In this document: piece after piece, positions 3,419-61,471 of the stretch | Layout of the letters: each line of letters opens with the position of its first letter | Numbering within the stretch: the first letter of the stretch is position 1 | From: Desulfoscipio sp. XC116 | GTDB lineage: Bacteria > Bacillota > Desulfotomaculia > Desulfotomaculales > Desulfallaceae | NCBI RefSeq assembly: GCF_039851975.1 | Contig: NZ_CP156660.1 | Coordinates: forward strand, 1,240,001-1,304,000 | Reading direction: 5' to 3' | DNA: 64,000 nucleotides | Notes under the pieces: generated by a model | The model's input: the letters and a program-made list of their open reading frames with translations, nothing else | Databases searched by the model: none | Told to the model about the DNA's origin: nothing | Translations under genes and position numbers: made by a program

Positions 3419-5407
3419 GTGTTACTGTTATCGCCGGTGAAGATAGGCCGGATGGAATTAAAAAACCGCGTGGTTATGCCGGCCATGCACCTGGGGTATT
3501 GCCGCGATGGGTTTGTTAATGAACAATTGGTGGAGTTTTACCGGGTACGGGCCCGGGGTGGGGTAGGCCTCATTATGGTGGGCGGCTGTGCTATAGATAA
3601 GTATGGTCATGGCAATATGGTCAGGATAGATAATGATAAATATATACCCGGGCTGGCCGATCTGGTCAAAGGTGTGCACGAAGAGGGCGGGAAAATTGCG
3701 GCCCAGCTATTTCAGCCGGGACGTTACTCCTATTCCTTCCTTTCTGGCACTCAGCCCGTAGCACCTTCGCCCATTCCCTCCAAGCTAACCAGGCAGATGC
3801 CCAGAGCCCTTGCCGTGGACGAGATACAGGGCATTGTGGACTCCTTTGGCCTGGCGGCTGTCCGCGCTCAAAAAGCGGGTTTTGACGCTGTGGAGGCCAT
3901 CGGCAGCGCCGGCTACCTGATTTCACAGTTCCTTTCTCCGGTAACTAACCAGCGGGATGATGAATATGGCGGTGACTTTGAGCGGCGGATGCGTTTTGGT
4001 TTGGAGGTGGCCCGCCGCATCAGAACGGCGGTGGGGCCGGATTATCCGGTGCTCTTCCGGGTGGGAGGCAACGATTTCATGCTTGGGGGCAATACCAACC
4101 GGGAAATTGTTATGTTCTGCAAACGCTTGGAAGAAGCGGGCGTGGATGCTTTTAACGTTACCGGCGGCTGGCACGAAACAACAGTGCCGCAGATTACTAT
4201 GGCCGCGCCCCGGGGTGTGTTTGCTTATCTGGCCCGGGGTGTTCGCGAAGCGGTTGGCGTGCCCGTTATAGCTTGTAACAGGATTAATGATCCCGCGTTG
4301 GCTGAGGAGATACTGGCCAATGGTATGGCCGACCTGGTGGGTATGGCCCGGGCTATGATTGCCGACCCTGATTTGGTGGCTAAAACCGCGGCCGGTCAAG
4401 CCGGTGCGATAAGAAAATGCATTGGCTGCAACCAGGGCTGTCTGGACAGTGTGTTTACCATGAAACCCGTGGGCTGTTTGGTCAATGCCCGGGCCGGGCG
4501 CGAGCTGGAGCAGGAACCGGAGCCTGCGCGGCAAGTTAAACAAGTGCTGGTGGTGGGCGGCGGCCCCGGCGGTATGGAAGCGGCCCGAGTGGCGGCTGAG
4601 CGCGGGCACCGGGTTACCCTGTGGGAAAAAGACCGCCGGTTGGGCGGGCAGCTAAATCTGGCGGCGGTCCCCCCGGGCCGGGAAGAGTTTAGTACGGTTA
4701 TTGAATATTACAGGCATGAACTGGACCGGCTGGGTGTGCAGGTGGAACTTAACAAGGAAGCAGACGAAAACAGCATTAAATCTTTTGGTGCTGATGCGGT
4801 GGTTATGGCCACCGGGGCCGCTCCCATGCAGCCTCCTATTTTAGGTGTGGATGGCGCCAATGTGGTGCAGGCCTGGGATGTGCTGGCGGGACAAGCGGCC
4901 ACCGGTAAGCGGGTGGTCATTATCGGCGGCGGCGCAGTGGGTTGTGAAACGGCATTGCTGCTGGCCCGTAAAGGTACATTGGACGCCGATGCACTGCACT
5001 TTTTAGCCCTTAATAACGCTGAAAGCTGGGAGACATTAAAAGAGCTGGCCATCCGGGGAGTTAAGGAAGTTACCGTGGTGGAGATGCAAAAGGCAGTGGG
5101 CGCCGATATAGGCATATCCTCACGCTGGGTAATCCTTCAGGAAATGCACCGGTTTGGCGTAAAGACAATAACCAGGGCAACGGCAAGAGAGATTAATGAA
5201 CGTGGTGTGGTGCTGGATACGCAGGGCAAGGAGGAAGTGCTGGAGGCCGATACGGTAGTGCTGGCGGCGGGCTCGCGTTCGCTGAGTGGTCTATGCGAAA
5301 GGGTGAAGGAGCAGCTGCCCGAGGTATATGTAGTAGGTGATGCCGTTGCCCCGCGCAAAGCACTGGATGCAATTTATCAGGGTTATTTGGCGGGTGCGGT
5401 ATTATAA
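3419..5407 (+). CDS. NADH:flavin oxidoreductase, OYE/2,4-dienoyl-CoA reductase (FadH) family
   Basis: 662 residues. An N-terminal FMN-binding TIM barrel (1-340) is followed by the family's 4Fe-4S motif CIGCNQGCLD with a further Cys 11 residues on (about 340-365). Two dinucleotide-binding Rossmann parts follow (VLVVGGGPGGMEA near 381; RVVIIGGGAVGCE near 497). Enzymes of this build pass electrons from NAD(P)H through FAD, Fe-S and FMN to an enone or enoyl-CoA; family members include FadH and the bile-acid enzymes BaiCD/BaiH. The sequence does not fix the substrate. An extra segment of about 50 residues in the second Rossmann domain is common in clostridial members. The start is GTG with AAGGGGGA 8 nt upstream. 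It stands alone. Confidence 0.9.
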   Translation: MLLLSPVKIGRMELKNRVVMPAMHLGYCRDGFVNEQLVEFYRVRARGGVGLIMVGGCAIDKYGHGNMVRIDNDKYIPGLADLVKGVHEEGGKIAAQLFQPGRYSYSFLSGTQPVAPSPIPSKLTRQMPRALAVDEIQGIVDSFGLAAVRAQKAGFDAVEAIGSAGYLISQFLSPVTNQRDDEYGGDFERRMRFGLEVARRIRTAVGPDYPVLFRVGGNDFMLGGNTNREIVMFCKRLEEAGVDAFNVTGGWHETTVPQITMAAPRGVFAYLARGVREAVGVPVIACNRINDPALAEEILANGMADLVGMARAMIADPDLVAKTAAGQAGAIRKCIGCNQGCLDSVFTMKPVGCLVNARAGRELEQEPEPARQVKQVLVVGGGPGGMEAARVAAERGHRVTLWEKDRRLGGQLNLAAVPPGREEFSTVIEYYRHELDRLGVQVELNKEADENSIKSFGADAVVMATGAAPMQPPILGVDGANVVQAWDVLAGQAATGKRVVIIGGGAVGCETALLLARKGTLDADALHFLALNNAESWETLKELAIRGVKEVTVVEMQKAVGADIGISSRWVILQEMHRFGVKTITRATAREINERGVVLDTQGKEEVLEADTVVLAAGSRSLSGLCERVKEQLPEVYVVGDAVAPRKALDAIYQGYLAGAVL

Positions 5408-5558: not shown

Positions 5559-6176
5559 TTACAGTATGATGGAATTTTGGTATGTAAGATCGTCAAACAT
5601 CTCAATGTGATTTTTACTTACATTTTTACCGACGCGTACCATCAACATATTGGCGGAGTGTTCCAGTATTTCGGGGTCATCGGTGTGCCGCCTTTTGAAG
5701 TTCACCGATCCAAAAACATGTTTAAGCATGCTCTGGTATTCCCACACGCCCATACCGCTGTTTTTCAGGTCCCAGTGCCAATAAAACTCAGTGGTAATCA
5801 GCACATATTCCTCCAGCGCGGGGTTTTTAAAAGCTTCTTGTAAAATCGCCTTGGCCAGACCTTTTTTCTGCCATTCGCGGCTGATTTCAATGGCGCCCAG
5901 TTCCAGAATGCGTGGATGCCTGACCCAGCGGCTGTACTGGTTGGGATAGTGGAATAACACATAGCCAACAATTTCACGATCGAAACGAGCAATATAAACC
6001 ATTCCTTCGGGAAGGTTGGCTACTAAGCCCAAGGCTTCTTTTTGCCGTCTGGGATTTCTGAAATTGTTCAGTGCCTGGTTAATTTCCAATGAGTCCAGAT
6101 ATGCCAGGGAAACCGGTCCTTCAAAAAATACCGGCCCTCTGTCCGTTATTAATTCCTTAGCCATAGCCACCACCAT
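5559..6176 (-). CDS. acuA: GNAT acetyltransferase, AcuA type
   Basis: 205 residues of the GNAT fold. The acetyl-CoA pyrophosphate loop region reads REWQKKGLAKAIL (about 100-112), and an HWDLKNSGMGVWEY segment (about 134-147) is characteristic of AcuA. In Bacillus subtilis AcuA acetylates and inactivates acetyl-CoA synthetase, so a role in acetate/acyl-CoA control is likely. The partner deacetylase AcuC is not in the window. Two starts compete: ATG at 6176 with no clear ribosome site, and ATG at 6162 preceded closely by GGTGGTGG. The assignment rests on motif memory, not an alignment. Confidence 0.78.
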   Translation of the reverse strand: MVVAMAKELITDRGPVFFEGPVSLAYLDSLEINQALNNFRNPRRQKEALGLVANLPEGMVYIARFDREIVGYVLFHYPNQYSRWVRHPRILELGAIEISREWQKKGLAKAILQEAFKNPALEEYVLITTEFYWHWDLKNSGMGVWEYQSMLKHVFGSVNFKRRHTDDPEILEHSANMLMVRVGKNVSKNHIEMFDDLTYQNSIIL

Positions 6177-6362: not shown

Positions 6363-7715
6363 CTAATTCCAGGTGATTCCGTATTTCTGTGAGCGGTAAA
6401 GCAGTGCCGAGCGGGTAATACCCAACAGCTGGGCAGCCTTGGTTTGGTTGCCGCCGCTTTTTTGTAAAGCTTTTAATATCAACTCCTTCTCTACTTCCTC
6501 CAGTGAAATGCCTTGTTCTGGAAATTCCAGTACCAAACCGGAACTGGGCTTGGGAGAAGCATAAAGTTCCCTGGGTAAATGCTCGGTATTAATAGTTGTG
6601 CTGTGGCAGATAATGGCGGCCCGTTCAATTACATTTTGCAGTTCCCGGATATTGCCCGGCCAGTTGTAACTGCATAAAAGCTCCATAGCCTCGACGGATA
6701 TATTTTCTACCTGGTAAGCGGGACCGAATTTATTTAAAAAGTGCTTGGCCAGCAGAGGTATATCCTCCTTGCGTTCCCTGAGCGGCGGCAGGTGGATATG
6801 AATTACATTCAGCCGGTAAAACAAATCCTCCCTGAATTCTCCTTTGGTAATTGCTTCATTGAGCTGGCGATTGGTTGCGGCAATAACCCGGACATCTACC
6901 GACAATGTTTCAGTGCCGCCTACTCGCTCAAAAGTCTTTTCCTGTAATACCCTGAGCAGTTTAGCTTGCATATTTAAAGACATTTCGGCAATCTCATCTA
7001 AAAAGATAGTGCCTTTGTCAGCCAGTTCAAAACGACCCAGCTTGCGGGAGATTGCGCCGGTAAATGCGCCCCGCTCGTGTCCGAACAGCTCGCTTTCCAG
7101 TAGTTGTTCCGGCAGTGCCGCGCAGTTGACGGTTACGAAAGGTGCATTATGCCGCTTACTGTTATTATGGATGGCTACGGCGGCTACTTCCTTGCCCGTG
7201 CCGCTTTCACCGGTGATGAGCACACTGGCGTTACTATGGGCAACTTTTTCGATGAGAGCGATAATCTCCTGCATTATTTTGCTTTGGCCCACAATGTTAT
7301 CGTATTTGCTGGTCAGTTCGGAACGCAGAAAAGTCACTTCGGTTTCCAGCTGGCTCAATAACAGATTTTGCTTGATCACCAGCTTGAGCTCATCTAAATC
7401 AAAAGGTTTGGTGATATAGTCGGCGGCGCCCATTTTCATGGCCTCAATGGCTGTTTCTATGGTGCCGTGGGCGGTGAGCATGATAACTGGCAGCTTGGGG
7501 TTAATGGCTTTAGCTTCTTTTAAAACTTCCATGCCATCCATATCCGGCATGCGTAAATCCAAAATCACCAGGGCAGGGGACTCCTCCCGAATTAAATCCA
7601 GTCCTTGTTGGCCCCGGTAAGCTACTATGGCTTGGTATCCCTCCTGACGCATGGCCCGGTCCAGTGCCCAACACATATGTTCTTCATCATCAACGATTAA
7701 TATCTTATGTGCCAT
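6363..7715 (-). CDS. Sigma-54-dependent response regulator, NtrC/AtoC/ZraR family
   Basis: 450 residues: receiver domain with DD pair (residues 9-10) and phospho-acceptor Asp in VILDLRMPDMDG (about 52); AAA+ domain with Walker A GESGTGKE (about 168-175), the sigma-54 contact loop GAFTGA (about 214-219) and the GNIRELQN signature; and a Fis-type helix-turn-helix at the C-terminus (GNQTKAAQLLGITRSALLYR). All functional motifs are intact. It is 23 nt downstream of the histidine kinase gene and surely co-transcribed. Its obvious target is the divergent tauE operon, whose upstream region carries a sigma-54 promoter and repeats (9426-9596). Confidence 0.95.
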   Translation of the reverse strand: MAHKILIVDDEEHMCWALDRAMRQEGYQAIVAYRGQQGLDLIREESPALVILDLRMPDMDGMEVLKEAKAINPKLPVIMLTAHGTIETAIEAMKMGAADYITKPFDLDELKLVIKQNLLLSQLETEVTFLRSELTSKYDNIVGQSKIMQEIIALIEKVAHSNASVLITGESGTGKEVAAVAIHNNSKRHNAPFVTVNCAALPEQLLESELFGHERGAFTGAISRKLGRFELADKGTIFLDEIAEMSLNMQAKLLRVLQEKTFERVGGTETLSVDVRVIAATNRQLNEAITKGEFREDLFYRLNVIHIHLPPLRERKEDIPLLAKHFLNKFGPAYQVENISVEAMELLCSYNWPGNIRELQNVIERAAIICHSTTINTEHLPRELYASPKPSSGLVLEFPEQGISLEEVEKELILKALQKSGGNQTKAAQLLGITRSALLYRSQKYGITWN

Positions 7716-7738: not shown

Positions 7739-9292
7739 TTAATTATACAGATCCCACGTTTCCGGCAGGGGTAATTGTACTGTAAAAGTGGTTCCTTCAT
7801 TGATGTGGCTGCTGACATTAATATGTCCGCCGTGCGCACGTACTATCTGGTGGCTTATAGACAATCCCAGACCGGCGCCGCTTTCCTTGGTGGTATAAAA
7901 CGGGTCGAATATACTGCCCAGCTCGGCTAGTTCAATACCCGAGCCATTGTCGGTGAAGTCTGTATATACCCATTTACTGTCATGAAACGTTTTGATGGTT
8001 AATGTGCCGCCATCGGGCATGGCCTGTGCGGCGTTTAATATTAGATTGACAAAAACCTGCTTGATTTTTTCCGCGTCGACCTCGGTATACGGTATGCTTT
8101 CGTCGAACTGCAGCTGAAGTTGAATATGCTGCTGGCGTAGCATAGGCGAAGTAAAAGTGAGTACTTTTTCCAACAGTGCATTTATAAACGCGCTTTGTAC
8201 GATATGTTTGCTGGGCCGTCCGAAATCCAATAATTCCTGAATTACTCGGTTGGAGCGGCTGATCTGCTCGTTAATTATTTTTACATACTCCTGCGTTTCA
8301 CTGATATGGGCGAAATCCTTTTCCATTAATTGTACAGTAGCTTTTATAACACCGATGGGGTTGCGCAGTTCATGAGCCACACCGGTGACCAGTCTGCCTA
8401 AGGCTGCCAGTCGTTCTGAGCGTCTTAACTCTTCCTCTAATTTTTCCTTCTCCGCCAGGGAAGCGGCCATTCTGTTCACAGCCCGGGCGATTTGGCCGGC
8501 TTCGCCGGGCAAATCGGGTATGGGGTGGCTGAGGTCCCTTTCCATAATACGCAAGCCGTTTTTAATTTTACTTACGCCACTGGTTAAATTGTGCATGATT
8601 ATTAGGGCCCCAAAAGGACTAATCATTAGAGCCAGCAGAGTAAAGTATCGGGTCATGGTGCGAAAATACCGGCTTTGAGCAAAGATGGGATGCACACCCT
8701 GATCGGCCCAGACTACAGCAACCAGTTGACCGTCAATGGTAACCGGGGACAAGTATTCGTAAGTCTGGTCATTTAGGCTGCTGGTTAACCGGGCCAGCGG
8801 TTGGCCTCCGGCGGCTACGTTAATTAATCCGCTGTTGGCTTCGTCTAAAATTCGCCTTTCTCTTTCCCTTTCTTCTTCCGGTCTTAACTTGCGGTATTGA
8901 TGCAAAAAACCTTGTACAAAGATTTGGCCCGTTTCGGGAATATATATCCCGAAACGCACTCCCGGGTTGCTGGGTACCAGCGGGCTGGCTGCCCGGTCAA
9001 AGGCTGTCTTGAGCAGTTCAACCTTATGGTTGGTTTCAAGTTTATATATATCTGTGTTGCCGGTATGAGTGATTGTTTTCTTAATGTCCGGTATAACCAC
9101 CGAATCAATGATAGTACCCAGCTTTTCCTTGCGTTCTATGAACATGGCTTCGTCGCTGCGGCTGGCAAAAAATAAGTCATACATAATTACCAGTACGGGA
9201 ATTATGAGCAGTAATGTAATAACTACTAAAAATTGATTGCGCAAGCTTTGGCCAATGAACCCGACGAAATAACCACTATCTTGTTTATTCAT
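7739..9292 (-). CDS. Membrane sensor histidine kinase, partner of the NtrC-like regulator
   Basis: About 517 residues. A transmembrane helix (residues 19-40) precedes an extracytoplasmic sensor of about 180 residues; a second helix (YFTLLALMISPFGALIIMH) is followed by a HAMP linker. The HisKA domain has the phospho-acceptor in VAHELRNPIG, and the HATPase has N (LILNAAQAMP), G1 (DNGSGI) and G2 (GAGLGLSI) boxes. I choose ATG 9292 (AAAGG 7 nt upstream) over a TTG at 9313. The sensor has a stretch of charged residues (RPEEERERERR) but no known ligand fold I can name. Operon with the regulator; stimulus possibly linked to sulfur anions given the target exporter (inference). Confidence 0.93.
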   Translation of the reverse strand: MNKQDSGYFVGFIGQSLRNQFLVVITLLLIIPVLVIMYDLFFASRSDEAMFIERKEKLGTIIDSVVIPDIKKTITHTGNTDIYKLETNHKVELLKTAFDRAASPLVPSNPGVRFGIYIPETGQIFVQGFLHQYRKLRPEEERERERRILDEANSGLINVAAGGQPLARLTSSLNDQTYEYLSPVTIDGQLVAVVWADQGVHPIFAQSRYFRTMTRYFTLLALMISPFGALIIMHNLTSGVSKIKNGLRIMERDLSHPIPDLPGEAGQIARAVNRMAASLAEKEKLEEELRRSERLAALGRLVTGVAHELRNPIGVIKATVQLMEKDFAHISETQEYVKIINEQISRSNRVIQELLDFGRPSKHIVQSAFINALLEKVLTFTSPMLRQQHIQLQLQFDESIPYTEVDAEKIKQVFVNLILNAAQAMPDGGTLTIKTFHDSKWVYTDFTDNGSGIELAELGSIFDPFYTTKESGAGLGLSISHQIVRAHGGHINVSSHINEGTTFTVQLPLPETWDLYN

Positions 9293-9425
9293 GTGTTTAC
9301 CTTTCCCTGCCAATTAGGTTAAAGCCTCGCTTACTTGAACTTTGTGCCCTTTTTAACAATTTTAAATGTTTGACGATATAATTGCAAGCTATTATTATAT
9401 AGAATGTCTGATAACGCACAAACCG

Positions 9426-9524
9426 CTGTCTGTTATTATGCAGTAAGATAAACTGCTCTTTTGTTTGTATTCCGGTTCACAAACAAATTGGCTTAATAAT
9501 TAATAAATAAACTGTCTGTTATTA
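9426..9524 (+). promoter_or_regulatory. Candidate enhancer sites for the sigma-54 regulator
   Basis: CTGTCTGTTATTA occurs twice as an exact 13-bp direct repeat (9426-9438 and 9512-9524, 86 bp apart). Between them a perfect 9-bp inverted repeat, TTTGTTTGT/ACAAACAAA with a 10-nt spacer, covers 9460-9487. All lie 55-155 bp upstream of the sigma-54 promoter, the usual distance for NtrC-type enhancer binding. Which of the two motifs is the operator is not decided by the sequence. Confidence 0.55.
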
Positions 9525-9580
9525 AACAATCGTTAAATAAGTAAGTGTTCGTAAACCTGCAAATAGTGCTATATTTGTTT

Positions 9581-9596
9581 TGGCACGGTATATGCA
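9581..9596 (+). promoter_or_regulatory. Sigma-54 (-24/-12) promoter of the tauE operon
   Basis: TGGCACGGTATATGCA: GG at 9582-9583 and GC at 9594-9595 with exactly 10 nt between, and six of seven bases of the -24 box TGGCACG in place (all seven match). The expected start point is about 9607, giving a leader of about 250 nt. The leader has no recognised riboswitch. Confidence 0.8.
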
Positions 9597-9858
9597 TAAT
9601 GAAAAAGCAATTATTATTTTTTTCACATGCTCCGGTGGGAATGTAAAACACACAAATTCATTATATCACATTCTTAAATTGCAAAAAAGGAATAAAGGAG
9701 GGGGTGAATCTGAAAACTGCTTGATTCGTTGGCTGGGGGTCAAGGTATTTTAAATTTAATAATAGCTTTAATATGTGCGGATTCTATTCATAATTAATAA
9801 TGCTTGGCAAGTGATTAATGTTCTCTAAACTAGATTATAGTATCGGGGGAAAGAAAAT

Positions 9859-10797
9859 ATGCTGGATGGAATTTTAGCCAAGGCAAGCATGATTATGGAA
9901 CTGGCTAACAACTCCCAGGTGGCCGCGGCGGTGACGCAGGCCTCGGGAACGCCGGGGATGCCCTGGTGGATGTGGCCTCTTATATTGCTGGTAACATGCT
10001 TTGTCATGGGCATAGTGGCTGTGATGGCGGGTGTGGGCGGCGGTGTGCTGTTTGTCCCCATCGTAGGTAGTTTCTTTCCGTTCCACCTGGATTTTGTACG
10101 GGGTGCGGGACTGATTGTGGCTCTGGCGGGTGCTCTGGCGGCGGGTCCTGGTTTGCTGAAAGCCAACTTGGCTAATTTGCGACTGGCCTTGCCGGTGGCA
10201 CTTATTGCATCAACCTTTAGTATCGTAGGGGCGTTTGTCGGCTTGGCGCTGCCGGCGGATATATTACAGATTTGCCTGGGTATCACTATCAGCTTGATTG
10301 CTGTACTGTTTATATTCTCCAAAAACAGCGAGTTCCCCAATGTAGGGCAGCCTGATACACTGACTCGTTCCCTCAATATCAGCGGTTCGTATTACGAGCC
10401 TTCGGCCGGCCGCCCGGTTAACTGGACGATTTGGCGCACTCCGCAGGGATTCCTGCTCTTCGTGGGTATCGGTATAGTGGCCGGTATGTTCGGTCTGGGT
10501 GCCGGCTGGGCTAACGTGCCGGTATTGAACCTGCTTATGGGTGCACCGCTAAAAATCGCCGTGGGATCAAGTAAGTTTTTATTGTCCATTACCGACACAT
10601 CGGCAGCCTGGGTTTATTTAAACCAGGGCGCGGTTCTGCCTATTATTGCAGTGCCGTCGGTGCTGGGCATTATGCTGGGTTCACTGGTAGGCGTTAAGCT
10701 GTTGGCAGGAGCAAAGCCCAAAATAGTGCGCAACATGGTTATTATAATGCTGTTATTTGCCGGCATCAGGTCTTTTCTCAAGGGATTAGGATATTAG
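9859..10797 (+). CDS. TauE/SafE family anion exporter/permease
   Basis: 312 residues, eight or so hydrophobic segments in two repeats. Each repeat has the glycine-rich family signature: GVGGGVLFVPIVGS (about 57-70) and FGLGAGWANVPVLNLL (about 212-227). TauE/SafE proteins move sulfite, sulfoacetate, taurine-derived or other organosulfur anions across the cytoplasmic membrane. A hydrophilic loop of about 50 residues (near 155-200) separates the two halves. Followed after 16 nt by a DUF1634 gene. Expected to be controlled by the divergent kinase/regulator pair through the promoter at 9581. Substrate is not readable. Confidence 0.88.
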   Translation: MLDGILAKASMIMELANNSQVAAAVTQASGTPGMPWWMWPLILLVTCFVMGIVAVMAGVGGGVLFVPIVGSFFPFHLDFVRGAGLIVALAGALAAGPGLLKANLANLRLALPVALIASTFSIVGAFVGLALPADILQICLGITISLIAVLFIFSKNSEFPNVGQPDTLTRSLNISGSYYEPSAGRPVNWTIWRTPQGFLLFVGIGIVAGMFGLGAGWANVPVLNLLMGAPLKIAVGSSKFLLSITDTSAAWVYLNQGAVLPIIAVPSVLGIMLGSLVGVKLLAGAKPKIVRNMVIIMLLFAGIRSFLKGLGY

Positions 10798-10813
10798 GTG
10801 GGGGTGGAAAGAT

Positions 10814-11296
10814 ATGAGTAGTCAAGTGAGAGCTGAAAACGTGCAACAGCAGACTGCACCGGCCAAGCAAAAGGCCGCGGCGCCCCGGATAGAAGTGCCT
10901 GCCGAGCAGATTAAATACGCTAATATGCTATTGTACTGTTCTTGGACCGGAATTGGCATACTAGTGGTTACCTTCCTTCTTTATATGAGTGGTATGATGG
11001 GTTCGTTCATTCCACCTGCTGAAGTATCTCAATATTGGGGTATGAGTGTACATGAGTACCTGGAAGCCACGGGAGCTCCGCACGGTTGGGAATGGCTGGG
11101 GATGTTGGGTAATAGTGACTATCTGAACCTTATAGGTATAGCTTTCCTGGCTTTGCTTACTATAGCAGGTTACCTGACGCTTTTATTACCGGCTTACTTA
11201 CGCAAAAAAGATATTCCTTATACGACTATTGTTGTATTGGAAATTGCTGTTTTAACGCTGGCTGCTTCCGGAATTCTTAAAGTTGGCGGGCACTGA
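10814..11296 (+). CDS. DUF1634 membrane protein, TauE/SafE partner
   Basis: 160 residues: a polar, Gln/Ala/Lys-rich N-terminal tail of about 35 residues, then three membrane helices (about 42-62, 105-127 and 136-155). DUF1634 genes commonly follow TauE/SafE genes, and the 16-nt gap here points to co-translation. GGGGGTGG precedes the ATG. Probably an accessory subunit of the exporter; its biochemical role is unknown in general. Confidence 0.75.
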   Translation: MSSQVRAENVQQQTAPAKQKAAAPRIEVPAEQIKYANMLLYCSWTGIGILVVTFLLYMSGMMGSFIPPAEVSQYWGMSVHEYLEATGAPHGWEWLGMLGNSDYLNLIGIAFLALLTIAGYLTLLLPAYLRKKDIPYTTIVVLEIAVLTLAASGILKVGGH

Positions 11297-11477
11297 TTTT
11301 TAAACATTGCGGTAGAGTCAGTTTTAATATGCAAATCCTGCAGGTGCCGGACCGGGTGATATGAAATTACGCTCGATCCTCCTGTCGGCCGGGTTCCGCG
11401 TCACATGTCCGGTGTTATATCGGATAGTTGCAAACTACTGGCGGGCTGATACAGTTATTTATTTGGAGGGGCATCAG

Positions 11478-12152
11478 ATGAATAGTGATTTTATGGAACA
11501 ATTTATCAGACATAAAAATGATTTTCTCAAGGAACTTACCAGAGGTAATATAGAGGTCAATTTTAAGACCGATAACAATGCAGACAGTAAAAAAATTATT
11601 CTGGAATTGTTTGAACAATGGCTGCTGAAAAAAACCGATCAAGAGCAATTGCAGCCGGTTCAATCCATCCAAGAGGATACCCAGTCATTTGATGTTTTTT
11701 TGGATGATGTGCTGTTCCGGGCTAAAAAAATACTGAGCGAGCGGGGTATCAAAATTGCTTATACCTCACTAAGCAATAAAATTGGCATTACTGAATCCTG
11801 GAAATGTATAAGAGTGTTTGGCAGCAGCAATATATATTACCGAATTGGTAAAACCCGCCCCCGCAAAGGTCCTTATAAAGGCCAGGAATATTTAGTGATT
11901 GACCTGGTTATGGACGGCAATAAAAAACAAGTATTTGTGCCGCTGTTGAAAAAGAAGGATGCAATAGAGAACCAGCTGGGAACCTCGCTGGAAAGGGAAT
12001 TGCCCAAGGTTGAAGCTACTGGGAAATACCGTTTAAAGCTAATGTTGCCCTATGATGTGATAAAGGAAAGGAATAAACGCCTGGCGGCCAAGAAGTTGGC
12101 GGATTTTGTCGAGGCCACCAAGCCTCACTTAAATGAGCTGGGTGTGGTGTGA
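11478..12152 (+). CDS. Conserved hypothetical protein
   Basis: 224 residues from the ATG at 11478, chosen because GGAGGGG lies 6-7 nt upstream; a longer frame back to 11361 has no ribosome site. Soluble, rather basic, with a helical N-terminal half (NDFLKELTRGNIEVNFK) and a mixed C-terminal half containing GKTRPRKGPYKGQEYLVIDL. I recognise no domain. It is about 180 nt after the DUF1634 gene with no clear terminator between, so it might be a weakly expressed tail of the tauE unit. Confidence 0.6.
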   Translation: MNSDFMEQFIRHKNDFLKELTRGNIEVNFKTDNNADSKKIILELFEQWLLKKTDQEQLQPVQSIQEDTQSFDVFLDDVLFRAKKILSERGIKIAYTSLSNKIGITESWKCIRVFGSSNIYYRIGKTRPRKGPYKGQEYLVIDLVMDGNKKQVFVPLLKKKDAIENQLGTSLERELPKVEATGKYRLKLMLPYDVIKERNKRLAAKKLADFVEATKPHLNELGVV

Positions 12153-12249: not shown

Positions 12250-12361
12250 AAACGGCTTGGTTTTTTGTGTGATTAGCCCGGAACCGAGCCTGTTTCAAAA
12301 GCCGTGGTGGCTTGCCCGGGCTGCTTGGAAGAGGATCTCTTGTGTTCAGGAGGTGAGGCGA

Positions 12362-12895
12362 ATGTCTGAACAATTAGAAAAAAGAGTCAGTGATATAATG
12401 ATACCGGTGCGCAATTATAAAGTAGTATCGCATAGTTGTACGGTTGCGGATGCTGTTAAGGTATTGCATAGAGGTTTTTACCAGCACGGCAATATAGGCG
12501 GGCAGGGGCATCGATCGGTCATTGTGAGTGATGATTACGGTGACCCCTTGGGGATGGTTACTTTTCGGTCCGTATTACAGGCTTTGGAGCCCTTTTTTGC
12601 CAGGGCCGATAATCTTTCCGTGCCAACCTTTTGGGAGGGGTTGTTTACCGAAAGATGTGTTTCCGAAGCGCAAAAAAACATTAAAGATATAATGCATCCC
12701 ATTAATGTCATTGCTCTGGATACCAACGATACTTTAATTAAGGCGGTACATGCCATGATTAAACACAAATTGGGCACACTGCCGGTTAAGAAGAATAACC
12801 GCTTGGTGGGCATGGTCAGGGTTAATGAATTGTTTGCCGAGGTGCATGATCTGGTAGTGGGTGCACAAAGCATGGAGGGTGCGCATATCGGGTGA
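12362..12895 (+). CDS. Tandem CBS-domain protein
   Basis: 177 residues consisting of two CBS domains: one starting VSDIMIPVRNYKVVSHSCTV and the second IKDIMHPINVIALDTNDTL. No enzyme or transporter domain is attached. CBS pairs (Bateman modules) bind adenine nucleotides and act as energy sensors on partner proteins. AGGAGGTGA lies 6-10 nt before the ATG at 12362; an upstream extension to 12257 lacks a ribosome site. Monocistronic, closed by the terminator at 12932. The partner is unknown. Confidence 0.85.
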   Translation: MSEQLEKRVSDIMIPVRNYKVVSHSCTVADAVKVLHRGFYQHGNIGGQGHRSVIVSDDYGDPLGMVTFRSVLQALEPFFARADNLSVPTFWEGLFTERCVSEAQKNIKDIMHPINVIALDTNDTLIKAVHAMIKHKLGTLPVKKNNRLVGMVRVNELFAEVHDLVVGAQSMEGAHIG

Positions 12896-13972: not shown

Positions 13973-15034
13973 GTGAGTAGCGAAGGTTACAGAAAGACAC
14001 GGAAACTTGAGCATATTAAATACGCTATGGAATTGCCCGAGGCAATTTGCCAATCCGGTTTTGATAATCTCTTATTGATACACAATGCACTGCCTGAAAT
14101 TGACTGGGAAGAGTTGGATACTTCCTGCGGCTTTATGGGTAAACGATTACGCGCTCCGCTGATGATTAATGCTATTACCGGTGGACATGCCGGTGTGCTG
14201 GAAATTAACCGGGAATTGGCCAGGGCAGCCGCTGCTACGGGAATTGCCATGGCAGTGGGGTCGCAGCGGGCTGCGCTGGATGATCCGGCGGTGCGCAGTA
14301 CTTTTTATGTGGCCAGGAAGGAGAATCCCAGGGGACTGTTGCTTGCTAATTTAAGTGCTTTTTGCACTCTGCAAGAGGCACTGGACGCCGTAAAAATGAT
14401 TGATGCCGACGGCATCCAGCTTTATCTTAATGTAAATCAGGAACTGGTGATGCGTGAGGGGGAAGCAAGATTTAGCGGCGGTCTGGAAAATATCAAGCAT
14501 TTGGCGCTTAATTTGCCTGTGCCGGTGCTGGTTAAGGAAGTAGGCTGTGGAATGGCGCGGGAGACAGTGCAGGCTTTGGCCGACGCGGGGGTACACTATA
14601 TAGATGTTAGCGGGTTGGGCGGCACCAACTTTGCGGCTATTGAAGGAAGACGCGGTGGTAAAGGTGGTTTTTCCCTGGAGCAGTGGGGAATTCCTACAGC
14701 AATTGGTTTGCTGGAGGCGTTGAGTATCGGTCGAAGGATATCGGTGGTGGCGTCCGGGGGAGTGCGTACGGCCGAGGATGCCGCCAAAGCACTGACGGCC
14801 GGGGCTTCTCTGGTGGCGCTGGCGGGGCCATTTTTGCGGGCCTTAAAGAAGGATGGAACAAAGGGGCTCATTAAATATATTAATGATTTAATTTTAGGCC
14901 TGAGCAGGGTGATGATGCTGACGGGTGCGCAGCATTTGGCTGCTTTGTCTCAAAAGCCCCTGGTAATTACCGGTTTTGTTGCCGAATGGCTTGAGCGGCG
15001 CGGTGTAGATGTTAATAGTTACGCCAGACGATAA
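13973..15034 (+). CDS. fni: Type 2 isopentenyl-diphosphate delta-isomerase
   Basis: 353 residues, GTG start 2 nt after the DUF2148 stop. FMN-dependent TIM barrel that interconverts isopentenyl and dimethylallyl diphosphate. Visible signatures: RKLEHIKYA near the N-terminus, MINAITGGH (about 65-73), MAVGSQRAAL, the catalytic region DGIQLYLNVNQE (Gln in the QLH-type motif), VKEVGCGM, and SGLGGTNFAAIEG plus ASGGVRTA for phosphate/FMN binding. Length is typical. No other isoprenoid gene is nearby. The ribosome site is weak (CAGG), so translation is probably coupled to the upstream gene. Confidence 0.93.
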   Translation: MSSEGYRKTRKLEHIKYAMELPEAICQSGFDNLLLIHNALPEIDWEELDTSCGFMGKRLRAPLMINAITGGHAGVLEINRELARAAAATGIAMAVGSQRAALDDPAVRSTFYVARKENPRGLLLANLSAFCTLQEALDAVKMIDADGIQLYLNVNQELVMREGEARFSGGLENIKHLALNLPVPVLVKEVGCGMARETVQALADAGVHYIDVSGLGGTNFAAIEGRRGGKGGFSLEQWGIPTAIGLLEALSIGRRISVVASGGVRTAEDAAKALTAGASLVALAGPFLRALKKDGTKGLIKYINDLILGLSRVMMLTGAQHLAALSQKPLVITGFVAEWLERRGVDVNSYARR

Positions 15035-59722: not shown

Positions 59723-61471
59723 GTGAATATGGCAATTGCAAGGCTTAAATTAGAAGACATTGTTATTAATTTGGAGGACATAATTGATTCGTCAAGTAAT
59801 GCGGTGTTGGCCATAAATTGTGCCGGAGTGGTTGTTTACTGCAACCAGCAGGTGGAAAAATTTCTTGCTCTACCGATTTGGCTGATTGTTGGCCGTCATG
59901 TGGAAAAGTTTTTTCCCGATACCGGGCTCCTGGAGGTGATGACGGAAGGAAAGCCGCAATTGGGCTGTAGGTTTATACTGAACAATGAAACTTACCTTTC
60001 AAATCGCAACCCGATTATCATTGATGGTAAAATCGCAGGGGCCGTGGCTGTATTTCAGGATGTAACCGTAATTCAAAATATTATTGATACGCTGACCACT
60101 AAAAATGAAAAAGTTCGTGAACTCAAGGAGACCCTGGCTAATGTTCTGGAATTATCCAGTGATGGCATAGTTGCCATTGACAAAGATTATAAAATTACCA
60201 TGGTGAACCAGGCTTATGCCAGTTTTTTCAATAAAAAGGCCCAGGAAATTATAGGCCAGAATGTAAAAAAGATTTATAATCGTAATCCCATATTTGCCCA
60301 ATCAATGGAGACCGGTGAAACCGAGCACGGATATGTTACTACCTTAAATGGCAAGGAGATAATAGCCAACAGAATGCCTATAAAAAAGGACGGGCAAATT
60401 GTCGGTGCGCTGGGTACGGTAGCTTTTAAAACAATATCTGATTTGTATGCCCTGTCCCAAAAAATTCAAAAATTGCGCAGTCAGCGTGACTATTACAGGG
60501 ATGAACTGGGGCGTACACAGCGTACTCGTTTTACCTCCGATCAAATTATTGGGCAAAGCCCTGCGTTCAGTGCCCTAAAAGAGACTGTCAAACGAGTAGC
60601 TAAGAGCCATTCCACAGTGCTGATCAGGGGGGAAAGCGGCACGGGCAAGGAACTGTTTGCCCACGCTATTCACACCGAAAGCGGTCGCTACCGTGGGCCT
60701 TTTGTTCGGGTGAACTGTGCCGCAATTCCCGAAAACCTTCTTGAATCAGAATTATTTGGTTATAGGGAAGGGGCTTTCACAGGAGCCAAAAGAGGGGGAC
60801 ATATCGGTAAATTTGAGCTGGCCGACAAAGGGGTAATATTTCTGGACGAAATCGGCGATATGCCGCTAATGATGCAGGCCAAACTACTTCGCGTGCTTCA
60901 GGAAAAAGAGATTGAACGTCTCGGAGACACCAAGCCGCGCAAGGTGGATGTGCGTGTAATTGCAGCCACCAATCGCAATCTCGAGGAAATGATTGTTAAT
61001 GGGGAATTTCGCGAGGATCTTTACTACCGGGTTAATGTAGTTACCCTAAATATTCCGCCTCTGTGCAAAAGGGTTGAAGACATTGAATTGTTGCTGGATT
61101 ATTTTATAAAACGATTTAATAATATATTTGGTCTTAAGGTTACGGGGGTGGAGAACGAGGTTATTCAGATATTAAAAAATCATCGTTGGCCGGGTAATGT
61201 TCGGGAACTGGAAAATGTTGTGGAAAGGGCATTTAACGTTATAGACGGTAGTTTAATCCATAAGGAACACCTGCCATTGTATTTATATAACCATCAAAAG
61301 TATAAGTGGATAAGTCGCGAAGGCGGGCTGGCCAAGATGGTCGAGGATATTGAAAGGGAAGCCATTATTGATGCTTTGCAGACCTGCGGAAATAATAAGA
61401 ATCGGGCAGCCGCTATGTTGGGTATATCAAGGGCGGGGCTCTACAAGAAGATAAACCGTTACAAAATATAG
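59723..61471 (+). CDS. PAS-domain sigma-54-dependent activator (RocR/BkdR type)
   Basis: 582 residues: two PAS-like domains (about 15-120 and 135-235), a coiled linker, AAA+ domain with Walker A GESGTGKELF (about 304), the sigma-54 loop GAFTGAKRGG (about 346), NVRELENV, and a Fis-type helix-turn-helix (GNNKNRAAAMLGISRAGLYKKI). No receiver domain, so it senses a ligand or redox state directly. GTG start with AAGG 6 nt upstream; ATG 59729 is the alternative. It most likely drives the CoA-transferase promoter 1.6 kb upstream. Confidence 0.92.
   Translation: MNMAIARLKLEDIVINLEDIIDSSSNAVLAINCAGVVVYCNQQVEKFLALPIWLIVGRHVEKFFPDTGLLEVMTEGKPQLGCRFILNNETYLSNRNPIIIDGKIAGAVAVFQDVTVIQNIIDTLTTKNEKVRELKETLANVLELSSDGIVAIDKDYKITMVNQAYASFFNKKAQEIIGQNVKKIYNRNPIFAQSMETGETEHGYVTTLNGKEIIANRMPIKKDGQIVGALGTVAFKTISDLYALSQKIQKLRSQRDYYRDELGRTQRTRFTSDQIIGQSPAFSALKETVKRVAKSHSTVLIRGESGTGKELFAHAIHTESGRYRGPFVRVNCAAIPENLLESELFGYREGAFTGAKRGGHIGKFELADKGVIFLDEIGDMPLMMQAKLLRVLQEKEIERLGDTKPRKVDVRVIAATNRNLEEMIVNGEFREDLYYRVNVVTLNIPPLCKRVEDIELLLDYFIKRFNNIFGLKVTGVENEVIQILKNHRWPGNVRELENVVERAFNVIDGSLIHKEHLPLYLYNHQKYKWISREGGLAKMVEDIEREAIIDALQTCGNNKNRAAAMLGISRAGLYKKINRYKI

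Follow-up and report, generated by a model that had tools for sequence, protein, structure and literature searches.

A sigma-54 control region with phased enhancers upstream of a putative sulfur-oxyanion uptake operon in a Desulfotomaculum-type sulfate reducer

Gene Content of the Locus

The window (the whole 64-kb stretch of DNA that was analyzed) belongs to a 4.26-Mb genome in which a single rpoN was found. It contains a 545-bp control region that separates a divergent kinase–regulator pair, on the minus strand, from a TauE/SafE gene at 9859–10797. The genes around this region are as follows:

5559–6176, minus strand: GNAT acetyltransferase, downstream of the regulator; a relative is present in 13 of the best 80 of 565 TauE loci
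6363–7715, minus strand: NtrC-family response regulator, with receiver, sigma-54 activation domain with GAFTGA, and Fis-type HTH
7739–9313, minus strand: sensor histidine kinase, with HAMP, HisKA, and HATPase domains, ATG at 9292, and a putative Cache/WalK-like extracytoplasmic sensor
9859–10797, plus strand: TauE/SafE (TSUP) transporter of 312 aa (Pfam PF01925), of a clade common in sulfate reducers
10814–11296, plus strand: P4, a 160-aa membrane protein, partner of the TauE clade and candidate subunit
11361–12152, plus strand: P5, a conserved soluble protein, with a start near 11478 suggested by comparison with relatives
12257–12895, plus strand: CBS-domain protein, with a true start probably near 12362

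The initial annotation had proposed that a kinase and a GAFTGA-type regulator are transcribed divergently from a TauE/SafE gene, and both genes of the pair were indeed found intact with their domains in place (HAMP, HisKA, and HATPase in the former, receiver and Fis-type HTH in the latter). The regulator combines the receiver, the GAFTGA-bearing sigma-54 activation domain, and the Fis-type HTH that define the NtrC family. The identity given to the gene at 9859–10797 is likewise sound, with a Pfam TauE match of 5.3e-36 and 124.9 bits against a cut-off of 32.6; its closest named relatives among the matches listed are those of Desulfotruncus alcoholivorax (87% identity) and Desulfoscipio geothermicus (86%). 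P4 directly follows the TauE clade gene in 79 of the best 80 of 565 loci and has no Pfam or NCBIfam match, while P5 has no Pfam match above cut-off and its fold model (pLDDT 76.7) retrieved no PDB match with E ≤ 0.001. Distant relatives of the window CBS-domain protein are the first genes of SulP operons in other genomes. Elsewhere in the window, we observed a long flavoenzyme (3419–5407) near the BaiCD, bilirubin reductase, and mycofactocin OYE families, with all scores below cut-off, a type 2 isopentenyl-diphosphate isomerase above its NCBIfam cut-off (13973–15034), and, at 60545–61048, another sigma-54 activator domain, which lies in a 597-aa open frame.

The sensor part of the kinase (residues 1–293) was modeled from 13 sequences as a long helix followed by a mixed strand–helix domain. 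This is a middling model (pLDDT 73.8), and it is with this reservation that its likeness to the Cache/WalK-type sensors 5is1 (Z 12.3, rmsd 3.4 Å, 127 aligned) and 4ywz (E 4.2e-4) should be read. The modeled fold carries no information on the ligand; the residues that are invariant in the 13 sequences, R113, H131, R134, R144, R147, and H201 among others, would be compatible with an anion.

A Conserved, Predicted Sigma-54 Promoter

The initial annotation reported an exact −24/−12 promoter upstream of tauE, which we recovered:

9581–9596, plus strand: predicted sigma-54 promoter TGGCACGGTATATGCA, with an exact GG-N10-GC and a start predicted at about 9606–9607

The GG and GC doublets lie 10 bp apart within a TGGCAC...TGC context that is conserved in relatives. 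This element is the sole match to the TGGCAYR-N5-TGCW pattern (TGGCAYRNNNNNTGCW) on both strands of the 64-kb window; since 0.30 matches are expected by chance and 29 of 100 shuffles carry at least one, the match is only mildly unusual when taken alone, and it is conservation in relatives that gives the promoter and its accompanying repeats their support beyond chance.

To compare promoters, we used the best 80 of 565 TauE loci, two of which were set aside for having too little upstream DNA. An orthologous regulator (64–88% identity) is encoded at 14 loci, two of which (L037 and L043; L and G numbers are our own handles for loci and genomes) show no kinase relative. The strict promoter TGGYAYNNNNNNTGC stands upstream of tauE, or of a P5–tauE operon, at 12 of these 14; in the remaining two (L035, L036), the element is conserved except that GT replaces GC at −12. 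Among the 64 other TauE loci with at least 300 nt upstream, only 3 have the strict promoter (L066, L075, L106). Two of them (L066, L075) encode a more distant sigma-54 activator (41–43%) upstream on the opposite strand, yet a distant opposite-strand activator is also found upstream at L093, L095, L099, and L103, which lack the strict promoter. No such promoter was detected in 720 nt at four TauE loci with more distant regulators of 48–59% identity (L026–L029). Genome-wide, 34 sigma-54-like sites were counted in the host against 12 for the reversed control. In one genome (L016/L040), a second sigma-54 promoter was observed downstream of the first, 185 nt before tauE, with its own pair of upstream activating sequences (UAS; 147 and 86 bp).

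Three Predicted Enhancer Palindromes on a Common Helical Phase

The initial annotation also described paired motifs 86 bp apart. These motifs (CTGTCTGTTATTA, at 9426–9438 and 9512–9524) exist, and each turns out to form the left part of an imperfect palindrome of 16 bp; a third copy of this palindrome, absent from that annotation, must be added at 9405–9420:

9405–9420, plus strand: UAS1, predicted enhancer palindrome TGTCTGATAACGCACA, starting 22 bp before UAS2; matrix score 17.7 (maximum 24.4)
9427–9442, plus strand: UAS2, predicted enhancer palindrome TGTCTGTTATTATGCA, including the first of the two repeats described initially; score 13.9
9513–9528, plus strand: UAS3, predicted enhancer palindrome TGTCTGTTATTAAACA, starting 68 bp before the promoter TGG; score 20.9

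The matrix behind these scores derives from TauE-linked loci of genera other than that of the window, with the window and the SulP loci out of sample, and its consensus is the 16-bp palindrome TGTCTGATATCAGACA. The pattern TGTCTGWTAWYNNRCA, with at most one mismatch, has four matches in the window against 0.17 expected, a number reached by none of 100 shuffles; three of the four are exact and fall within a 124-bp stretch of the control region. Across 30 regions, some of them in-sample, we counted 2.73 UAS matches per region against 0.05 in base-shuffled ones (here, as in the Rex-like and extended −10 tests below, shuffling kept base composition only), and the out-of-sample SulP-operon regions had at least two matches in 8 cases out of 8. 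In the host genome, the UAS pattern occurs at 19 places with at most one mismatch, three of which fall in this control region, with no other close pair among the 19, and at 267 places with at most two mismatches against 166 for the reversed pattern.

The spacing of these palindromes is itself conserved. UAS1 and UAS2 are 22 bp apart in the window's family. Among the 25 TauE or P5–TauE regions used in the period test below, 20 have UAS3 at 66–70 or 77–79 bp from the promoter; in 15 further regions, the nearest UAS falls near 45, 56, 67, 78, or 89 bp. The misfits are L012 (83 bp), L015 (134 bp), L021 (88 bp), L023 (52 bp), L024 (102 bp), and L025, whose UASs stand at 195 and 217 bp. Taking the nearest upstream UAS of each region, the distances under 100 bp are periodic at about 11.0 bp (R = 0.77), a value equaled in 0 of 5,000 random sets drawn uniformly on 45–90 bp, with the caveat that n = 38 overstates independence because the loci are related. 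The test set leaves aside L015 and L024, which exceed 100 bp, L025 and L026, which were not entered, L257 and L231, whose promoter is not in the usual place, and L182 and L183 (81 and 76 bp); its "other targets" category also includes the TauE- or P5-linked loci L237, L244, L246, L248, and L256. Some misfits aside, these distances suggest that the enhancers occupy one face of the helix, as expected of an activator that must face the polymerase.

One could still argue that the sigma-54 match is fortuitous, given that chance alone would yield 0.3 copies of the 16-mer in the window, and that tauE transcription depends instead on a sigma-A promoter; one candidate is TTAACA-18-TATAAT at 9353–9382, a good sigma-70-like plus-strand site that agrees at 11 of 12 positions. 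We regard this alternative as very improbable, because the sigma-54 promoter and its phased enhancers are conserved together in different genera and also at SulP loci that were out of sample. The conserved promoter, enhancers, spacing, and divergent kinase–regulator pair lend strong support, at the level of sequence comparison, to the sigma-54 two-component circuit that the initial annotation had proposed.

The Same Switch Precedes Interchangeable Transporters

We then looked for a composite pattern joining enhancer and promoter in 60 genomes, and obtained 18 matches in 17 of them against none for the reversed control; in the host, the pattern occurs once, at the window promoter. All 18 precede anion-transporter operons. 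The target belongs to the window TauE clade in 13 cases, three of them with P5 first, whereas the five other matches come from four genomes devoid of this clade (only weak TauE paralogues are present), in which the target is another TauE-family gene or a SulP permease:

G039 (L177, L220): CBS protein and SulP permease, encoded divergently from a related regulator (60% identity)
G056 (L178, L223): kinase divergent from a CBS...SulP operon
G047: SulP away from the kinase (L182, L240) and, next to the kinase, another TauE-family gene (L184, L239)
G025 (L183, L241): SulP on a contig other than that of the kinase

The two SulP promoters located away from the kinase (L182, L183) have three UASs each. 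As for the identity of these permeases, the scanned SulP proteins match Pfam Sulfate_transp (PF00916), and the complete ones STAS as well; relative to the NCBIfam sulP cut-off of 380 bits, one complete protein scores 369 and a truncated one 352, and matches to the BicA and DauA models also occur below cut-off.

We also searched from the side of the kinase. At E ≤ 1e-25, its sensor family is present in 52 of 113 genomes of the class, and forty neighborhoods were examined. In seven genomes of one genus, the kinase–regulator pair is divergent from CBS-...-SulP operons (L222, L223, L225, L227, L229, L232, L233), all of which have a sigma-54 promoter and at least three enhancer matches. Other neighborhoods served as an internal control: no UAS match was found at L219, L221, L230, L235, L236, L243, L245, L247, L249–L255, and L258, and a single one at L231. 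In the same genus as the seven SulP-linked genomes, we also observed paralogous pairs with sigma-54 promoters that are divergent from another TauE-type gene, TSUP360 (L224, L226, L228, L234); these regions gave no UAS match at the same threshold and may constitute a sister regulon with a different operator.

In a quick tree of 50 kinases, the G047 kinase that neighbors another TauE-family target (L239) falls inside the TauE-linked clade (97, starred), and target labels change at least 4 times over the tree; among these changes, only the nested swap of L239 is well placed, because the SulP, TSUP360, and L238 branches all attach at an open fork.

A Rex/HcpR-Like Element and a Probable Facing Promoter

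Between the enhancers, the initial annotation had pointed out an inverted repeat (TTTGTTTGT/ACAAACAAA, at 9460–9468/9479–9487). The repeat is present, but its palindrome is not conserved, and we rejected it as an operator in itself; what relatives keep, in part, is a shorter TTGT-N7-TTCACAA element:

9465–9482, plus strand: TTGTATTCCGGTTCACAA, Rex/HcpR-operator-like, between UAS2 and UAS3, agreeing with TTGTGAANNNNTTCACAA at 11 of 14 positions

With three mismatches to TTGTGAANNNNTTCACAA, the window copy has a score of 11, which 2 of 200 shuffles reach. Over 25 regions, the score is at least 11 in 10, equal to 10 in 7, and at most 9 in 8, for a shuffle mean of about 8. Allowing two mismatches, the motif occurs at 17 places in the host genome against 16 for the reversed control, so only the clustering of these matches counts as evidence: six of the 17 fall within 44 kb (binomial 1.3e-8, for an interval chosen post hoc). 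Within this cluster, one motif is upstream of sat, which is followed by aprB, aprA, and qmo-like genes, two are upstream of a TauE-type gene, one is between a DASS gene and a divergent CBS gene, one is upstream of a second DASS gene, and one is upstream of a gene for an unassigned 557-aa protein. We note for the record that this sulfate-activation cluster, with sat, aprA, aprB, qmo-like, two DASS, TauE-type, and CBS genes and six motifs, spans loci L267–L269 (G000:C1:2940000-2996500). A tighter pattern, TTGTGMANNNNTKCACAA, was found without mismatch at 10 places in 8 of the 60 genomes and nowhere for the control; three of these places are upstream of sat (G000, G001, G006), one is between a DASS gene and a 557-aa-type gene (G052), one is upstream of an MFS gene, and the remaining five paired with none of the proteins compared.

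In sequence, the element of the window resembles a putative operator whose copies cluster near sat, DASS, and other sulfate genes in the same genome. This genome also encodes one Put_DNA-bind_N protein (Rex-type N-terminal domain). Rodionov et al. attributed to HcpR the motif TTGTGANNNNNNTCACAA, which they found in front of sat and apsAB in Desulfovibrio (PMC545781); in the available text of a paper from 2020, sat is placed under the control of Rex (PMC7531388). Degenerate left halves are common to the sites described in the accessible part of the former paper and to the motifs of the window's genome; the window copy differs in sitting between sigma-54 enhancers.

Past the sigma-54 promoter, three further elements were noted:

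9618–9627, plus strand: TTTTTTCACA, conserved block just past the predicted start, present in 12 of 25 regions, 31–41 nt after TGG
9660–9668, minus strand: TGATATAAT, extended −10, probable sigma-A promoter for the kinase–regulator operon, facing the sigma-54 promoter
9694–9706, plus strand: AAAGGAGGGGGTG, resembling a strong ribosome-binding site and accompanied by a 6-codon frame (GTG...TGA) in the 250-nt leader; identified by eye

On the opposite strand, TGNTATAAT occurs 54–125 nt downstream of TGG in 18 of 25 regions, compared with 0.9% of shuffles, and this element probably starts the kinase–regulator transcript as an extended −10. In Desulfofundulus-type loci, the gap between the kinase start and the first enhancer is below about 60 bp, so that little room is left for another kinase promoter. 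In the leader, the 6-codon GTG frame that follows AAAGGAGGGG was considered as a leader peptide and rejected, being by eye not conserved as coding. An Rfam scan of 9200–9900 gave no match at E ≤ 1, and hence no known riboswitch in the 250-nt leader. A terminator-like stem is present at 9440–9456; three such sites occur in 9200–11500, against 2.4 in shuffles.

Import or Export of a Sulfur Oxyanion

To situate the transporter, TauE relatives were collected by a whole-genome search of 60 genomes, own included, and from the best 80 of 565 confirmed contig loci. Counting the clade as present at E < 1e-100 (as well as in G050, where a contig-end fragment gave 1.5e-42), we found it in 29 of 52 genomes with a DsrA over its curated cut-off, the host's own among the DsrA-bearing ones, and in 0 of 8 without (Fisher p 0.005, kinship ignored). 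Since 23 of the 52 dsrA-positive relatives lack it, the clade is not essential for sulfate reduction. It extends, at 58–71% identity, to records of other phyla, including Archaeoglobi. It was also observed in records titled Actinobacteria, Euryarchaeota, Burkholderiales, and Nitrosomonadales (L041, L051, L096, L106), some of which may be misbinned.

The initial annotation had read this module as stress- or sulfur-anion-induced export. On such a reading, sulfite or organosulfonate-derived sulfite would induce a protective exporter. The Pfam name TauE/SafE invites this reading, named members of the family include a sulfite and a sulfoacetate exporter according to the available text of PMC11535334, and sulfite is an intermediate of sulfate-reducing metabolism. 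The same sulfite, however, is the substrate of DsrAB, no sulfonate gene was recognized by Pfam or NCBIfam among the ten annotated window neighbors, and, above all, SulP permeases take the place of the target behind the same enhancers and promoter in genomes without the TauE clade. We therefore consider a protective exporter quite unlikely: control by a sulfur anion stays plausible, whereas export and induction by stress find no support.

Sulfate has been reported as a substrate for both the TauE-type and the SulP-type families (PMC5840216, PMC11535334, in their accessible text), and a TauE homologue of P. fluorescens that restores growth of an E. coli delta-cysA strain is called a sulfate uptake transporter (PMC11535334, accessible part). 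A switch that interchangeably controls TauE- and SulP-type proteins would most simply imply one shared substrate. On this basis, with the swapped SulP targets, the dsrA association, and the TauE complementation literature taken together, we rank import above export with moderate confidence: the TauE protein more likely imports sulfate or another sulfur oxyanion than exports it.

The shared substrate of the TauE, TSUP, and SulP proteins could, however, be another anion, namely thiosulfate, sulfite, or bicarbonate, imported for respiration or for carbon/pH purposes and read as such by the sensor. SulP substrates do include bicarbonate and dicarboxylates, the SulP proteins found here match the BicA and DauA models below cut-off, and sulfite import has been suggested for a tauE homologue of Archaeoglobus fulgidus (PMC3949148, available text). 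The dsrA association and the Rex/HcpR-like motif shared with sat favor sulfate over bicarbonate and are also compatible with sulfite or thiosulfate. We hold this alternative to be unlikely overall and retain sulfate as the most likely cargo.

Relation to Known Systems

Sigma-54 control of TSUP-type transporters is already known, for example in Desulfovibrio. In Desulfovibrio vulgaris, nine sigma-54 operons encode TSUP or PSE transporters, for which substrate data are absent from the accessible part of the source (PMC4641369). The nearest precedent is DVU2956, which was shown by EMSA to bind upstream of the sigma-54 operon DVU2957–DVU2964 (PMC4641369, available text); as in the window, a GAFTGA activator is divergent from a sigma-54 operon, labeled there as transmembrane transport, and one of its products, DVU2958, belongs to a conserved TSUP clade (PMC5840216, available text). 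DVU2956 differs in having neither an N-terminal domain nor a kinase partner according to the accessible text, unlike the window regulator, which has a receiver and a kinase.

Marietou et al. (2018) delineated a highly conserved TSUP clade B, with DVU2958, Adeg_0175, and Dret_2118 among its members, present in 25 of 44 sulfate reducers from six phyla and considered a possible sulfate transporter (PMC5840216). The distribution of the window TauE agrees with that of clade B, of which it may be a member, judging by description and not by sequence; no regulator, promoter, or P4 partner is given for clade B in the accessible part of that paper. TK06_RS10770 (PMC11535334, accessible part) is likewise a TauE-family protein with sulfate import concluded from complementation, but it comes from Pseudomonas, is tied to assimilation, and is likened to the window TauE by family only. 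Finally, XptB (target sulT) and XhpR (target hyp-memP; also in Desulfotomaculum) of Clostridiales, whose function is listed as unknown, are sigma-54 activators with sulT or membrane-protein targets found in Desulfosporosinus, Desulfotomaculum, and relatives, and XhpR has a TGT/ACA-type UAS; the likeness is one of description only, and the accessible text describes no kinase-coupled regulon of interchangeable transporters (PMC6615313). In the open-access literature, we found no earlier description of a regulon that couples a kinase and phased enhancers to importer families replacing one another.

Proposed Mechanism and Implications

We consider it likely, at roughly two chances in three, that this region governs an operon for the uptake of a sulfur oxyanion, most probably sulfate, in a Desulfotomaculum-type sulfate reducer, and that it works as follows. 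The extracytoplasmic Cache-type sensor of the kinase would read the anion, or the need for it, and the regulator, once phosphorylated, would bind the three TGTCTGATATCAGACA-type palindromes on one face of the helix, two of them 22 bp apart and one near the promoter. Its GAFTGA ATPase would then open the sigma-54 polymerase at 9581–9596 and thereby activate a putative operon made up of the TauE-clade transporter gene and those of its partner P4 and of P5. Through the Rex/HcpR-like operator between the enhancers, this switch may respond to the same redox or electron-acceptor state by which sat is controlled. As for the kinase–regulator transcript, its probable start lies downstream on the opposite strand, from where it would traverse the sigma-54 promoter and the enhancers, so that regulator binding could limit the regulator's own synthesis.

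Sulfate import and its control are poorly settled in dissimilatory sulfate reducers, in whose genomes TSUP proteins are abundant with roles that, according to the available text of PMC5840216, could not be predicted. In this regard, a conserved regulon in which TauE-type and SulP proteins substitute for each other suggests a function, open to test, for a widespread clade labeled "sulfite exporter" and for the unannotated protein that accompanies it. The regulon also points to a sensor as a candidate for sulfate sensing. More broadly, and with slightly less than even confidence, we propose that Gram-positive sulfate reducers may possess a dedicated sulfate-supply regulon, in which one kinase–regulator pair, phased TGTCTGATATCAGACA enhancers, and sigma-54 would control whichever importer the lineage has (TauE with P4, another TSUP protein, or SulP), under Rex/HcpR-like energy gating and opposed-promoter feedback, and in which the so-called sulfite exporter would be a two-gene sulfate importer.
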